Part shown: positions 8,253 through 42,577 of the stretch, piece after piece
Layout of the letters: each line of letters begins with the position of its first letter
How positions within the stretch are numbered: position 1 is the stretch's first letter
Origin: Phytoactinopolyspora alkaliphila
Lineage (GTDB): Bacteria; Actinomycetota; Actinomycetes; Jiangellales; Jiangellaceae
DNA: 42,577 bases
Direction: 5' to 3'
Assembly: GCF_010550695.1 (NCBI RefSeq)
Contig: NZ_JAAGOB010000021.1
Location: 1 to 42,577 of the forward strand
The notes under the pieces: model-generated
What the model saw: the letters and a program-made list of their open reading frames with translations, nothing else
The model's database searches: none
Told to the model about the DNA's origin: nothing
Translations under genes and position numbers: made by a program

Positions 8253-9229
8253 TGCACGCCGTCGTGATCACTGAGCCGGGTGGCCCAGACGTGCTGCGGT
8301 GGAGCGTGGTTCCGGACCCGGAGTGCGGTCCTGACGAGGTGGTCCTCGATGTCGCCGCCGCAGCCGTCAACCGCGCGGATCTGCTCCAGCGGCAAGGGCA
8401 CTACCCGCCGCCACCCGGCACTCCGGCGTGGCCCGGCTTGGAATGCAGCGGCACCGTGCGCGCGGTCGGGGCAGCGGTCTCCGGCTGGTCGGTAGGCGAT
8501 CGAGTGTGCGCGCTGCTGTCCGGCGGCGGCTACGCCGAACAGGTAGCGGTGCCCGCGGGACAGGTGCTGCCGGTTCCGGCCGGCGTCGACCTGGAGACCG
8601 CAGCCGGCCTGCCCGAGGTGATGTGCACGGTCTGGTCCAACGTGGTCATGGCCGGACGGCTGTCCCGCGGCGACGTGCTTTTGGTGCACGGCGGCGGCAG
8701 CGGCATCGGCACCGCCGCGATCCAGATCGGGGTGGCACTGGACGCCACCGTCGCCGTGACCGCCGGATCGCAGGCCAAGCTCGACCGGTGCCGGGATCTG
8801 GGAGCGTCGATCCTGGTGAACTATCGCGAAGAGGACTTCGCCGAGGTGGTGCGCACGGCCACGGACGGCCACGGCGCCGACGTCGTCCTGGACATCATCG
8901 GCGCGAAGTACCTCTCGGCGAATCTGGATGTGCTGGCCACCGCGGGCCGCCTGATCGTGATCGGGCTCCAAGGCGGCCGCAAGGCCGAGCTGGATCTGCG
9001 CACCTTGATGGGCAAGCGCGCTTCGCTCATCGGCACGACGCTGCGTGCCCGGCCGGTTGAGGAGAAGGCTGAGATCGTCGCCGATGTCTGTGAGCATCTG
9101 TGGCCGCTGATCTCGTCCGGTGCGGTCAAGCCGATCATCGACCGGGTGATCCCGATGCGTGACGCCGCGGAAGCGCATCGCGTCGTCGAGCACGGCGACC
9201 ACGTCGGCAAGGTCCTCTTGACGCGCTGA
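8252..9229 (+). CDS. NAD(P)H-quinone oxidoreductase, zinc-independent MDR family (PIG3-like)
   Basis: 325 residues, ATG at 8252 coupled to the previous stop. The N-terminal GroES-like domain includes MHAVVITEPGGPDVL, NRADLLQRQGHYPPPPG and PGLECSGTV. The Rossmann motif is LLVHGGGSGIGTAAIQIG. The catalytic and structural zinc ligands of alcohol dehydrogenases are missing. The NRADLLQRQG and LPEV segments match the PIG3/quinone oxidoreductase branch, which reduces quinones with NADPH. It ends the nitrilase-mobA cluster; the palindromic repeat begins six bases after its stop. Confidence 0.9.
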   Translation: MHAVVITEPGGPDVLRWSVVPDPECGPDEVVLDVAAAAVNRADLLQRQGHYPPPPGTPAWPGLECSGTVRAVGAAVSGWSVGDRVCALLSGGGYAEQVAVPAGQVLPVPAGVDLETAAGLPEVMCTVWSNVVMAGRLSRGDVLLVHGGGSGIGTAAIQIGVALDATVAVTAGSQAKLDRCRDLGASILVNYREEDFAEVVRTATDGHGADVVLDIIGAKYLSANLDVLATAGRLIVIGLQGGRKAELDLRTLMGKRASLIGTTLRARPVEEKAEIVADVCEHLWPLISSGAVKPIIDRVIPMRDAAEAHRVVEHGDHVGKVLLTR

Positions 9230-9234
9230 CTCGC

Positions 9235-9308
9235 GCGCATGCCAGGGGTTGTGGTCGTAGATCCGGGCGATTTGTCCGATTTCAACGACCACAAACCCTG
9301 GCATGCGC
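9235..9308. repeat. Palindromic repeat element, copy 1 (conserved loop)
   Basis: 24-bp arms (9235-9258 and 9285-9308) pair with one mismatch around a 26-base loop. The inner arm GGTTGTGGTCGT and most of the loop match the element at 35121-35200: about 18 of 28 loop bases agree, including the shared TCCGATT. The outer arms differ between copies but stay self-complementary. It lies directly behind a stop codon. A terminator-like role is possible, though no T-tract follows. Confidence 0.75.
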
Positions 9309-9439
9309 CGAACAGGGGGCGAGAAAGGGCGCGGAGACACGCGATGAGGCAGCCGAAAGCGGCACGTGGGCACGCCAGGCTCACGTCAGCCGCCGCCCCA
9401 CCGTGAGCATCTCACGTACATCTACGTCAAGATGGGGGG

Positions 9440-10006
9440 ATGACGGAGTCGAATGAGAACGCCGAACAGGGCGATGTCCAGGGCGAGGAGAGCCCTCGGG
9501 TGGTTGTTGTCGGGCCGGGCGGCATGGCCGTCGAAGCCGGGCAAGACGAGGATCAGAACGAGCCGAGCTCGCTGACCGACCTCGTCGAACAACCGGCGAA
9601 GGTGATGCGGATCGGTAGCATGATCAAGCAGCTGCTGGATGAGGTCAAAGCCGCGCCCCTCGACGAGGCGAGCCGACGCCGGCTCGGTGACATCCATCGG
9701 AAGTCGCTGGACGAGCTCGAGGACGGCCTGGCGCCGGAACTCGTGGCCGAACTCGAACGGCTGGCCCTGCCCTTCGGCGACGACACCCCCTCGGAGTCCG
9801 AGCTCAGGGTCGCCCAGGCTCAGCTGGTCGGCTGGCTGGAGGGACTCTTCCACGGCATCCAGACCACCCTGTTCGCCCAGCAGATGGCCGCTCGCGCACA
9901 GCTTGAGCAGATGCGCCGGGCGCTTCCGCCAGGTGCGCAGCTCGGCCAGGCTCCGGGAGCCGGTCCGCCTGGTGAAGGAGAACAGCGCAGCGGCATGTAC
10001 CTGTGA
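9440..10006 (+). CDS. bpa: Bacterial proteasome activator (Bpa / PafE)
   Basis: 188 residues, ATG at 9440. The acidic disordered N-terminus (about 1-45) is followed by a helical core: SLTDLVEQPAKVMRIGSMIK, LLDEVKAAPLDEASRRRL and LVGWLEGLFHGIQTTLFAQQMAARAQLEQ. The C-terminus is GMYL. A hydrophobic-Tyr-X (HbYX) end is what docks Bpa rings onto the 20S proteasome in mycobacteria (Rv3780), opening the gate without ATP to degrade unfolded proteins. The organism is therefore expected to carry proteasome genes elsewhere. The gene is monocistronic and ends at a strong terminator. A GGGGGG run directly precedes the start codon, so spacing of the ribosome site is unusual. Confidence 0.92.
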   Translation: MTESNENAEQGDVQGEESPRVVVVGPGGMAVEAGQDEDQNEPSSLTDLVEQPAKVMRIGSMIKQLLDEVKAAPLDEASRRRLGDIHRKSLDELEDGLAPELVAELERLALPFGDDTPSESELRVAQAQLVGWLEGLFHGIQTTLFAQQMAARAQLEQMRRALPPGAQLGQAPGAGPPGEGEQRSGMYL

Positions 10007-33331: not shown

Positions 33332-34066
33332 TCACTCCTGGCCGGCGCCCGAAGGCGTGAACGCCAGGGCGAGATTCTCCGGACGCAAGACGTCCCGAGG
33401 CGAGGCGTGCATGATGACGCGCTTGTGCATCAGGGCGGCCTCGTCCGCGAGCTCATGCACAGCGGTCAGATCGTGGGTGGCGATGATGACCGTGTGTCCG
33501 GTAGCGGCACGTTCCCGGAGGACGTCCGTCATCGTCGCCTCCGAGCGCTTGTCCACCCCGGAGAACGGCTCGTCGAGGAGCAGCAACCGAGCCTCCTGGG
33601 CGATCCCGCGGGCGACGAAGACCCGCTTGCGCTGCCCGCCCGACAGCTCACCGATCTGGCGCTCCGCCAGCTCGGTCAGCTCGACCTGGTGCAACGCCTG
33701 CGCCACCGCCGTCCGGTCGGCCGGCCGGGACCGCCGCAGCGCCGACATCCTGCCGTACCTACCCATCGCCACCACGTCGCGGACCCGGAGCGGGAATGTC
33801 CAGTCGACAGTCTCGGCCTGCGGGACGTAGGCGACCTCGCCGCTACGCCTGCTGGTTGCCGGATCGGTGCCGAACAGCCGCACCTGCCCCGTCCGGGGAC
33901 GAACCAGACCCATCACGGCCTTGAAAAGCGTCGACTTGCCGGACCCGTTCATCCCGATCAGTGCGCAGACGCGGCCGGTTTCCACCACCAGCGACGCCGA
34001 GTCCAGAGCGACGACGTCGCCGTATCGCACCGAGACGTCCATGACCTCCACGGCCGGCTCGCTCAT
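33332..34066 (-). CDS. Metal ABC transporter ATP-binding protein (manganese type)
   Basis: 244 residues, ATG at 34066 in ATGA overlap with the binding-protein stop. Walker A is GMNGSGKST, the Q-loop segment is AYVPQAETVDWTFPLRVRDVVAMGRYG, the signature is LSGGQRKRVF, Walker B is LLLLDEPF, and the switch His is in ATHDLTAV. The VDWxFP...VVxMGRYG text after the Q-loop is shared with Mn/Fe importers (SitB, MntB, PsaB). It drives import from the cytoplasmic face. Confidence 0.94.
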   Translation of the reverse strand: MSEPAVEVMDVSVRYGDVVALDSASLVVETGRVCALIGMNGSGKSTLFKAVMGLVRPRTGQVRLFGTDPATSRRSGEVAYVPQAETVDWTFPLRVRDVVAMGRYGRMSALRRSRPADRTAVAQALHQVELTELAERQIGELSGGQRKRVFVARGIAQEARLLLLDEPFSGVDKRSEATMTDVLRERAATGHTVIIATHDLTAVHELADEAALMHKRVIMHASPRDVLRPENLALAFTPSGAGQE

Positions 34067-35031
34067 GAATCCCCACTGTTCACATCGGTTCCGTCAGGCC
34101 GGACGAGTCCCGAGACGATCGCCTCCACGTCATGCCTGATCAGGTCGAGGTAGGTGGGTACCGGCCCATCCGGCTCGGACAGCGAGTCGACGTACAGGGC
34201 AGCGCCCACCTGCGCTCCGGACTCCGCGGCCACCTGGCGCTGGAGCCGGTCACTCACCGTGGACTCACAGAAGACGGCCGGGACCTCGTTGTCACGCACG
34301 AATGCGATCACATCTGTCACCCGGCGGGGAGTACCCTGCTCGTCGCTGTTCACCGGCCAGAGGTAGGCCTCGGTGAGTCCGGCGTCCCGAGCCAGGTAGG
34401 AGAACGCTCCCTCGCAGGTGACAAGTGCCCGTTGCCGGGCTGGCAAGGTAGCGACGCCTTCCACGAGGTCGGTGTGCACCTCGCGAAGCCTCTGCGCGTA
34501 CTCGGCCGCATTCCGCTCGAACCGGTCCGCGTTGGCGGGGTCCAGCTCCGCGAACGCCGCAGCGATATTGTCCGCGTACACGATCACGTTCAGCGGAGAC
34601 ATCCATGCGTGCGGGTTGGCGTCTCCCGCGTAGTCGCCCGCCACGATCGGTATCGTCTCCACTCCCTCGCTGACGATCACGCGTGGGGCGTCGACGCGGT
34701 CCATGAAGCCGTCGAACCACGCTTCGAGGCCGAGCCCGTTCTCCAGGACCAAGTCCGCTCCATCCACGCGGCGGACATCACTCGGGGTCGGCTCGTAGCC
34801 GTGGATCTCTACACCCGGCTTGGTGATGGACTCGACGTTGATCAGCTCGCCTCCGACGTTCTGCGCGATATCGGCCAGCACGGTGAACGTGGTCATGACC
34901 TTCGGCCTGCCGTTCTCGTCGTCGAGCGACGCGGAGGCGGCACCACAGCCGGAGGCGGCGATGAGCGCGAGAGACACAAGTACGCTACGGCCAACCTTAG
35001 AGTTCGGATGCCCGAACTTTCTCATCGACAC
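34063..35031 (-). CDS. Metal ABC transporter substrate-binding lipoprotein, manganese type
   Basis: 322 residues from the GTG at 35031, six bases after GAGGAG; an ATG two codons on is the alternative. The lipobox is AASGC (Cys29). The four metal ligands can be placed: His77 (IHGYEPTP), His141 (ANPHAWMSP), Glu207 (TCEGAFSYL) and Asp282 (YVDSLSEPDGP). The last three have exactly the spacing of PsaA H139, E205 and D280. A Glu in the third place, rather than a His, marks Mn/Fe rather than Zn proteins, and EAYLWPVNSDEQGTP matches the PsaA/MntC signature. It captures Mn2+ outside the cell. First gene of the operon and a likely MntR target; I found no clear MntR box. Confidence 0.92.
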   Translation of the reverse strand: MSMRKFGHPNSKVGRSVLVSLALIAASGCGAASASLDDENGRPKVMTTFTVLADIAQNVGGELINVESITKPGVEIHGYEPTPSDVRRVDGADLVLENGLGLEAWFDGFMDRVDAPRVIVSEGVETIPIVAGDYAGDANPHAWMSPLNVIVYADNIAAAFAELDPANADRFERNAAEYAQRLREVHTDLVEGVATLPARQRALVTCEGAFSYLARDAGLTEAYLWPVNSDEQGTPRRVTDVIAFVRDNEVPAVFCESTVSDRLQRQVAAESGAQVGAALYVDSLSEPDGPVPTYLDLIRHDVEAIVSGLVRPDGTDVNSGDS

Positions 35032-35120
35032 GCGCCGCTCCTCTCGTGCATCACAAGGCTACCCGGCGCCGCAGAACGCGAGCACCGGGGTCGCCGCGCC
35101 CACCTATCCCCAGACGCGAC

Positions 35121-35200
35121 TCAGCCCTTGGCATGGGTTGTGGTCGTAAAGCCGCCCGAAATTTCCGATTCGAGCGACCCTAACCCATGCCAAGGGCTGA
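35121..35200. repeat. Palindromic repeat element, copy 2
   Basis: 26-base arms (35121-35146 and 35175-35200) pair with two mismatches around a 28-base loop. The inner arm GGGTTGTGGTCGTA and much of the loop repeat those at 9235-9308. It lies 15 bases beyond the stop of the XRE-TPR gene, as copy 1 lies behind the quinone oxidoreductase stop. Confidence 0.75.
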
Positions 35201-35214
35201 GAACGCCGCAGACG

Positions 35215-36606
35215 TTAGTTGAGGGCCAGCTCGGACGGCTGCTCGGACGGCGCATCCAGAACCACTCCGGCACCCACCGAATGCATGATCCGCATCGACT
35301 GGAGCGCACGGTCGAACGCCTCGAGGGCTTCATCCGTGCGGCCGAGATCCCGATACAGGTCACCCAGCTCACGCCAGGCGACCGCTGCCCGTCGGGATGC
35401 GCCCATCGCCTCGAGCATGGACGCCGCCAGGGCACCCTCACGGGCACTCTGATCGACGTCGCCCTCCGCGCGCAAGACTCGCGCCAGCACGAGCCGAGCC
35501 CGTGCCGACTCCATCCGAGGCTGGTCGCCGAGGTCTTGAAGCGCCGCCTTCGCTGCCTCGTGAGCCTCGTCGAGACGGCCGAGGGCGAGCAGCGCGTCCG
35601 CCCGGGTGCTCTCGAAGTGCCGGACATCGTCCACGCCGCCATGCATGGTGATCTCGTCGCGGACGCTCTCCAGGAGGTCGAGCGCGTCGTTGGCCCGAGG
35701 CTCGTCACCCTGCAACAACAGCCAGGCATAAGCCATGCGCAGACGAGCCAGGTTGCGGCGGTCATCACCTTCACCGAACAGGGCCAACGCCCGGTCGACG
35801 AGGTTCAGCGCCTGGGCGAGATCTCCCCTGGACTCGGCGATGACCGAAGCGTTCCAGTACGCGGCACCCCTGGTGTGCGGCGCCCCCATCTGGTCCGCGG
35901 CACGCACCAGCTCGGACGCGAGAGTCCGGGACCGTACGATGTCGCCTCGCCCGTGGTAGGCGCTGAGTACCGTGCAACCGAGCCGGACGTACTCGTCCGT
36001 GTGCTCCAAGCCCATCTCCGCGGCCGTGCGCATGGCTTCCTCGCCGATCTGGATCGCCATGTCGAGGTCGCCGGCGCTCTGATAGCAGCGCGACATCGCG
36101 AGGGCGATGTCCAGCCAGGGTTGGACCTCCGGGCTCTGCCGAGCTTCGTCCGCCAGCCCGCCCAGAAGACCGATGGCGCCTTCGAGGTCCCCCTTGCGCT
36201 CGAGCGCCTGCGCCTGCCCGAGGCGAGCGCGCCGGCTCTGCTCATCGTTGAGCCCGGGGTCACCGATGAGCGTGGTGAACTCGTTGTAGGCGGCTTCGGC
36301 ATGGCCGTCGAGGAGGTCCTTCTCGGCGCGCCCGAGCGCGAGTCGCGCACGGGTGCGCACTGAGGCGTCGACTCCGTCGCGGAGATACTCGACATCGATG
36401 CGAAGCCGCTCGGCGATATGTGCGAGTGCCGCCGCGGCGGGCTGCCGCCGGCCGCTCTCCACGAGCGAGACATAGCTGGGGGATAACATTCCTTCGGCGA
36501 TATCAGCCTGGGAAAGTCCCAGCTCCAACCTGCGTGTGCGTATGCGCTGACCGACAGGCGTGGGGGATGGCGCCTCGTCAAGTGTTGCCTGTGGCTCCTC
36601 TGTCAT
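35215..36606 (-). CDS. XRE-family HTH regulator with TPR repeats, candidate peptide receptor
   Basis: 463 residues, ATG at 36606. The N-terminal XRE HTH (about 18-72) reads VGQRIRTRRLELGLSQADIAEGMLSPSYVSLVESGRRQP. The rest is helical tetratricopeptide-type repeats (about 85-445), for example LARLRMAYAWLLLQGDE, ADALLALGRLDEAHEAAKAAL and AWRELGDLYRDLGRTDEALEAFDRAL. HTH plus TPR is the architecture of RRNPP peptide-pheromone receptors (PlcR, Rgg, AimR). This one is longer than those (roughly 280-390 residues), but TPR-bearing XRE proteins of this size are common in actinobacteria. It is divergent from the 43-codon secreted-peptide gene, 62 bp away, and may sense that peptide. Receptor function is inference. 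Confidence 0.85.
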   Translation of the reverse strand: MTEEPQATLDEAPSPTPVGQRIRTRRLELGLSQADIAEGMLSPSYVSLVESGRRQPAAAALAHIAERLRIDVEYLRDGVDASVRTRARLALGRAEKDLLDGHAEAAYNEFTTLIGDPGLNDEQSRRARLGQAQALERKGDLEGAIGLLGGLADEARQSPEVQPWLDIALAMSRCYQSAGDLDMAIQIGEEAMRTAAEMGLEHTDEYVRLGCTVLSAYHGRGDIVRSRTLASELVRAADQMGAPHTRGAAYWNASVIAESRGDLAQALNLVDRALALFGEGDDRRNLARLRMAYAWLLLQGDEPRANDALDLLESVRDEITMHGGVDDVRHFESTRADALLALGRLDEAHEAAKAALQDLGDQPRMESARARLVLARVLRAEGDVDQSAREGALAASMLEAMGASRRAAVAWRELGDLYRDLGRTDEALEAFDRALQSMRIMHSVGAGVVLDAPSEQPSELALN

Positions 36607-42428: not shown

Positions 42429-42577
42429 CCCCCAAATGATCATGTAAACCATGTTTTCTCGTGCTTCACCAGGCTCGGGTTCATGTGGTGAACGCAACAC
42501 CCTGTGTTTCGGAGGTGTTGCAGGATGGGGCGTCCGCGGATTCCGGTGCAGGTGCGGCGTGAGTTTTGGCGGTTGAT
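42429..42577 (+). mobile_element. IS30-like insertion sequence, transposase-proximal end (right copy, partial)
   Basis: The tip starts at or near 42429 (CCCCCAAATGATCATGT) and the element runs off the right edge. 42474-42577 is identical to the complement of 24-127. The tip region (42434-42473) matches the left copy less well and lacks about 11 bases found there. Confidence 0.7.
42525..42577 (+). CDS. IS30-family-like transposase, N-terminal 17 residues only (runs off the window)
   Basis: ATG at 42525 with GGAGG (42511-42515) nine bases upstream. It encodes MGRPRIPVQVRREFWRL before the window ends, identical to the left copy. Family assignment rests on this short stretch. Confidence 0.6.
   Translation, partial: MGRPRIPVQVRREFWRL

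Follow-up and report, generated by a model that had tools for sequence, protein, structure and literature searches.

A dispersed family of DNA hairpins with REPIN-like anatomy in Phytoactinopolyspora alkaliphila

The locus studied here raises the question of whether the long palindrome behind a quinone oxidoreductase gene of Phytoactinopolyspora alkaliphila is a plain terminator or belongs to a mobile, REP-like family. The window, i.e. the whole stretch of DNA that was analysed (42,577 nucleotides), was compared with the rest of the genome, with other genomes of the family Jiangellaceae and with further actinomycetes.

The two hairpins of the window and their copies in the genome

The two strongest inverted repeats of the window are located at 9235-9308 (copy 1) and 35120-35201 (copy 2); both have 27-nt arms, each 93% complementary. 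On the plus strand the folding energy is of -61.5 kcal/mol for copy 1 (z -8.7) and -56.2 kcal/mol for copy 2 (z -10.2), and on the minus strand of -59.1 and -64.2 kcal/mol, respectively; in each of the four cases 0 of 200 shuffles folded as well. The preliminary description had given copy 1 as a palindrome at 9235-9308 with 24-bp arms and one mismatch. The palindrome is real, since 23 of the first 24 positions pair (26 of 27 in copy 2; G-T pairs are included), but its extent is different: the conserved unit measures 80 nt (Table 1). In copy 1 it begins 2 nt after the stop of the oxidoreductase gene, behind which the palindrome had been placed, and about 15 nt separate copy 2 from the HTH/TPR stop codon. 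The resemblance of the two loops, estimated before at about 18 of 28 bases, is of exactly 18 of 28, and the comparison of both copies bears out that the outer arms differ in sequence and remain complementary, i.e. that the stems are compensated. Both hairpins contain the 13-mer GGTTGTGGTCGTA, which has 2 exact matches; with up to 2 mismatches it has 6 matches for 0.8 expected, a number reached in 0 of 100 shuffles. No Rfam family matched the window at its gathering score, and an identity as a known Rfam RNA family is not supported.

Table 1. Position of the two hairpin elements and of the neighbouring genes in the window
Feature	Coordinates	Strand	Basis
Hairpin element copy 1, half-arm type B/B (..GCATGCCAGGG..)	9232..9311	+	Covariance model, folding, alignment
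Copy 1, 5' arm, 26 nt	9232..9257	+	Alignment row L005:1501-1580, pair count
Copy 1, loop, 28 nt; core GGGCGATTTGTCCGA at 9265-9279	9258..9285	+	
Copy 1, 3' arm, 26 nt	9286..9311	+	Alignment
Hairpin element copy 2, half-arm type A/A (..CCCTTGGCATGGG..)	35121..35200	+	Covariance model, folding
Copy 2, loop, 28 nt; core GCCCGAAATTTCCGA at 35154-35168	35147..35174	+	
Zinc-binding dehydrogenase / quinone oxidoreductase gene, upstream of copy 1	8255..9229 (start approximate)	+	PF00107, PF13602, PF08240
Bacterial proteasome activator gene, downstream of copy 1	9440..10006	+	PF10759, E 1.8e-75
ZnuA-like protein gene, neighbour of copy 2	34063..35031	-	PF01297, E 6.2e-82
HTH + TPR protein gene, stop facing copy 2	35215..36606	-	PF01381, PF13424

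A covariance model built from both window copies (R1) was searched over the 5.5-Mb genome of the strain with E≤10. It recovered 46 distinct places, from 150 scored among 184 first-look candidates, and 44 of them were found on both strands. The E values are ≤0.03 for 44 places, the two others being weak (0.07 and 0.3). The window palindrome is a member of a dispersed hairpin family in P. alkaliphila, with some 46 places and not only the two copies that the preliminary description had considered as a possible outcome of such a search. An exact loop pattern, which was too strict, matched in one of 99 genomes (that of the strain itself) and nowhere in genome_contigs.

Three types of half-arm were distinguished in this genome: type A (CCCTGGCATGGG), type B, where the same segment is inverted (CATGCCAGGG), and type C (CTTCGCATGGG). 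The 46 copies, which align once oriented by the loop, are divided among A/A (21 copies), B/B (5 copies) and mixed pairs (13 copies), 7 copies being not assigned by the motif test. At least 22 of the 26 arm positions pair in 26 copies, and fewer than 22 in the other 20. A pattern of the type-A arm, blind to structure, gave 79 matches in the genome against 9 in the reversed control. Of these matches 74 are inside the 46 places, 3 are likely due to chance and 2 form one solo palindromic unit (C12:91854-91884). As 74 of the 79 arms are in hairpins and a single unit is solo, the doublet is the unit of the family.

The complementarity extends in some copies into the unique flanks. The mean complementary run there is 2.07 against 1.03 (sd 0.20) after shuffling of the partners, and 0 of 2000 shuffles were as high; when shifts of up to 2 nt are allowed, the effect is weaker (3.15 against 2.60, sd 0.20, with a largest shuffle value of 3.35). 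This extension could reflect insertion into pre-existing hairpins or selection for longer stems.

Position of the copies relative to genes

Gene neighbourhoods were taken from home-made gene calls. Codirectional gaps contain 25 of the 46 copies, convergent gaps 17 and divergent gaps 3, and one copy is inside a gene call. The location relative to stop codons had been proposed earlier as a check: among the 42 copies of convergent or codirectional gaps, 38 are at most 60 nt from a stop, and 22 of the 25 codirectional copies are nearer to the upstream stop than to the downstream start (p 1.6e-4). According to the same home-made calls, convergent gaps account for 17 of 45 copies and for 21 of the 147 gaps free of the element (Fisher p 0.0011), and divergent gaps for 3 of the copies and 32 of these gaps (Fisher p 0.026). 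The bias is weaker in the other sampled genomes (16 convergent, 12 codirectional, 9 divergent and 1 open among 38 loci, several of them duplicates).

Such places past stop codons and between convergent genes would be expected of resident hairpins with a function at 3' ends, i.e. bidirectional terminators or RNA-processing signals, whose arms would have been homogenized by selection or conversion and not by transposition. The very stable folding of both strands and the extension of stems into unique flanks point the same way. We nevertheless consider this explanation rather unlikely. A U-tract (5 T in 8) outside the stem was found at 0 of 92 outward sides, T represents 14% of the outer 12 nt, and terminator scans gave no prediction at either window copy. 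The canonical U-tract terminator is rejected on these grounds, and the earlier opinion that the palindrome is REP-like and not a plain terminator fits the same counts. The usual terminator loops are much smaller than 28 nt, a length that the loops of the family reach. In addition, plain terminators need neither an arm sequence common to the whole genome nor a loop core.

The loop is oriented with transcription in 11 cases, against it in 10 and unclear in 4. This ratio argues against a strand-specific RNA role, and a loop working solely on the RNA sense strand was discarded.

A mobile gene among the neighbours found no support. No protein group recurs beside many copies, either among the 236 flanking proteins of the genome (intercompared, best 40 pairs) or when 162 flanking proteins of other genomes are compared with this set. 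Pfam searches with the window genes and four others revealed ordinary families, the four being of the PhoU, histidine-phosphatase/mutase, L,D-transpeptidase and metallo-beta-lactamase fold types. Two exact patterns, a weak test of a phage link, had no match in viral contigs.

Relatives, conservation and turnover of sites

In the family Jiangellaceae, R1 has matches in 17 of 22 genomes at E≤1. One of them, in G007 (L041, E 0.15), is due to chance, as there is no hairpin at this place. The congeners have 8, 4, 1 and 0 matches compared to 90 in the genome of P. alkaliphila, a comparison in which R1 favours its own arms. R1 matches are also numerous in G015 and G012, and there are none in G003, G005 and G011. 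With a general covariance model (R2), 18 of the 22 family genomes match at E≤1e-4, so that relatives do carry the hairpin, contrary to the other adverse outcome considered at the start. At the same threshold 29 of the 393 genomes covered by the class search match, 11 of them outside the family; 11 candidates were scored per genome and the copy numbers are lower bounds. Examined by eye, the best loci of these 11 genomes contain a core-like loop in six cases, a doubtful one in one case and none in four. Three of the six (L252, L255 and L259) come from one genus and share their own arm GCTCATGCATGAGC, which indicates that this lineage, too, has the old loop within a stem specific to it. A looser loop pattern gave 20 matches. 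In all six from Jiangella rhizosphaerae the arms pair, with 0 to 24 of 2000 shuffles doing equally well; a Geodermatophilaceae MAG has one clear member (3 of 2000) and a Nocardioidaceae MAG one weakly supported member (94 of 2000), whereas the pairing of the other 12 is unconvincing (262 to 1879 of 2000). Related hairpins are thus found in most of the Jiangellaceae genomes searched and in a few other actinomycetes.

The geometry is constant across genera: an arm of 26 nt, 7 nt, the 15-nt core GCCCGAWATGTCCGA, 6 or 7 nt, and an arm of 26 nt. The aligned members are of 80 or 81 nt with loops of 28 or 29 nt, except for one G001 member among the 34 aligned loci, which has a longer loop like the other G001 copies examined. 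From these loci, 22 were hand-picked for diversity (alignment A3, including the Nocardioidaceae sequence); all but one have at least 18 of 26 pairs. The proportion of paired cells in A3 is of 81.6%, compared with 61.0% after shuffling, and the covariation score of 0.577 exceeds those of the shuffles (0.203) and of the slid controls (0.10-0.14). A structure model served to gather the rows, so that pairing is favoured, and the slid controls carry this bias only partly. With the same help from the structure model, two-sided compensation is observed in 24 of the 26 stem pairs, and the conservation of structure supposed in the preliminary description is upheld.

Conservation is distributed differently within and between genomes. 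Among the 46 copies the mean pairwise identity is of 79% and 73% for the two arms, 56% for the loop, 67% for the core and 36-37% for the flanks. Between the groups of A3, on the contrary, the core (76%) exceeds the arms (47%); within groups the values are of 74% and 58%, the largest group pooling several Jiangella-type species. The divergence of the loops indicates that most copies are not recent, so the conservation of the arms may reflect selection or conversion.

An origin as MITEs, in which the arms are the terminal inverted repeats of a classical insertion sequence and an internally deleted copy was moved by a DDE transposase, would account for a dispersed element with inverted arms and no coding capacity. 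We regard it as improbable. The variation of the arms between lineages around a stable core is the reverse of what recognition of terminal repeats predicts, and a visual inspection of flanks showed no apparent target-site duplication. Furthermore, type-A arms are confined to short hairpins apart from the five matches mentioned above, which form no pair around a gene (in the genome of the strain; arms B and C are partly covered).

Orthologous sites were read by eye and then checked for hairpins. At the site of window copy 1, G001 has no hairpin beyond 7 bp, G004 has a hairpin with other arms, and G002 and G003 have about 1 kb of extra sequence, apparently a gene. For window copy 2, the neighbour genes differ in the compared genomes, which gives no clean orthologous-site comparison. 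The site between the PhoU gene and a PF00300 gene contains no such hairpin in G002 and a plain 16-bp hairpin in G003; it is rearranged in G001 and G004, where long hairpins of other families adjoin one of the two genes. The element is absent from the site behind the L,D-transpeptidase gene in G002, whose hairpin has arms of only 12 nt, and in G003, where there is no hairpin. The stop codon of this gene is TGA in G002 and G003, and TAG in P. alkaliphila (G000), where it coincides with the first bases of the element. On the other hand, G000 and G004 both have a hairpin at C2:160016, with loops of one type and arms that differ, and three Jiangella-type genomes have the element at a common site, next to proteins of 90-92% identity; some sites are therefore old. 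Turnover and persistence of sites both occur. Resident 3'-end hairpins find some support in the hairpins of other kinds that occupy comparable sites (G001 to G004), while the congener sites without the element speak against them.

The element-free congener sites also weigh against chromosomal protein-binding sites with a nucleoid or segregation function, in which the arms or the loop would be read. The nearly uniform arm sequence in the genome and the loop core present in several families would agree with this explanation, but the strong gene-end bias and the lower number of R1 matches in congeners (with the preference of R1 noted above) make it very improbable.

In G015, the loci L117 and L118 are 3.4 Mb apart and have an identical element with 30 identical nt on each side. 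Judged from these 30-nt flanks, the pair would have arisen by duplication of a segment and not by separate insertions.

Other long hairpins are dispersed in these genomes. A second, unrelated family, which includes window positions 42430-42470, has the arm AATGATCATGTAAACCATGTTTTCTCGTGCTTCACCA and a loop around CTGCAG. This arm has 115 matches in P. alkaliphila, 135 in G002, 103 in G001, 71 in G005 (another genus), 9 in G003 and none in G004 or the other 16 family genomes; this family outnumbers the one associated with the oxidoreductase gene. A run of 7 nt within the arm is species-typical among the matches listed. Apparent insertion sequences, which may be IS30-like and ISL3-like to judge by their protein ends, occupy the loop or the base of such hairpins at window positions 42470-42577 and at 12 contig ends of the same genome (L266-L277, selected by a match to the arm pattern), and these hairpins look like landing sites of insertion sequences. 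Dispersed families with other arms are found in the congeners (L108-L114 in G001, L159 and L222 in G004, L172 in G002). The G001 family has the arm CGGTGATCGTCAGTGGGTTGTGG, whose inner part is common to P. alkaliphila, and the arm CCCCATGATCATGAACAC of another is present in G004, G001 and G002. Finally, two genera have long hairpins whose arms are alike, L208 7861-7960 (P. alkaliphila, ..CTTTGCAATGCGCAC..) and L225 6046-6120 (G015, ..CTTTGCAATGAGCAC..), which suggests a further shared family.

A probable REPIN-like element and its comparison with known systems

We conclude that the family probably consists of REPIN-like, non-autonomous DNA hairpins of about 80 nt, with two inverted 26-nt half-units and a loop of 28-29 nt containing a conserved 15-nt core. 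This conclusion relies on the observed dispersal, fixed geometry, compensated arms, gene-end location and occurrence of sites with and without the element; the dispersal and the element-free sites suggest mobility. The whole hairpin would be copied, as a single strand or a cruciform, by a trans-acting enzyme other than RAYT that reads the arms, the loop core or both, and the core may be its lasting recognition site. Copies would persist chiefly past stop codons, where they are least harmful, and may provide transcripts with a useful 3'-end hairpin; an RNA stem of about 26 bp would also suit RNase III. The arms would turn over by lineage, so that the old loop would be combined in each lineage with a different type of stem. 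More tentatively, the family may represent a distinct class of mobile DNA carried by hairpins in the Actinomycetota, with the core read by a putative non-RAYT enzyme acting on single strands or cruciforms and the arms replaced wholesale in each lineage. No description of the family was found in PubMed Central text.

The REP-like anatomy supposed in the preliminary description holds; the linked RAYT/Y1 transposase, named there as something to look for, was not found. RAYT (PF01797) was detected in 0 of 22 family genomes, including that of P. alkaliphila (a few small contigs of which were read as N), whereas the same search matched in 5 of 14 control genomes. Among the 46 loops, GTAG is present in none and CGTC in 7; on either side, no more than 4 of the 46 flanks contain GTAG and no more than 9 contain CGTC. 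No position of either tag is shared by most of the 46 copies. A true RAYT-mobilised REP/REPIN family with a GTAG or CGTC tag, which the inverted doublets and the gene-end location would recall (PMC3733652 and PMC3116915), is largely refuted by these counts and retains a negligible probability. As the REPIN anatomy comes without detected RAYT or shared tag, the element is said to work like a REPIN and is not filed as one. REP and REPIN elements are explained by RAYT transposases, and the same anatomy occurs here in genomes without detected RAYT. The family implies that another enzyme can spread REPIN-like elements or that the pattern arises without one. The common loop core offers a concrete bait for seeking this enzyme, and lineage-specific arms make family turnover measurable in strain collections.

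Bidirectional intrinsic terminators resemble the family by position and strong hairpin, and differ from it since the elements have no U-tract, a large conserved loop and arms alike within the genome. BIMEs, as described in PMC3733652 and PMC6006769 and in general background, are mosaics of half-units in either orientation, to which the pairing of types A, B and C with their like or with another type can be compared; unlike BIMEs, no clusters were seen in the family and its aligned members are fixed at 80/81 nt.

According to Di Nocera et al. 2013 (PMC3733652), a survey covering 8 phyla, REPs tagged by GTAG or CGTC are palindromic, past stop codons and chiefly in convergent or codirectional gaps, and their inverted dimers can fold into one long hairpin, as in the present family. 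The CGTC REPs likewise have no dedicated transposase. The difference is the terminal tag, which is not a feature of the family; CGTC is present in Jiangella-type arms, but within the paired stem. The words "Actinobacteria", "Streptomyces" and "Mycobacterium" do not occur in the main text of this paper, nor does "Actinobacteria" in that of Bertels and Rainey 2011 (PMC3116915). The latter describes REPINs as REP doublets forming hairpins, with a spacer less conserved than the REPs. The family shares with them the inverted conserved half-units, the less conserved spacer, a similar length, the extragenic dispersal and the doublet as unit. It differs from REPINs by 26-nt arms that pair throughout, a spacer core common to several bacterial families, a host among the Actinomycetota and 22 family genomes without detected RAYT.
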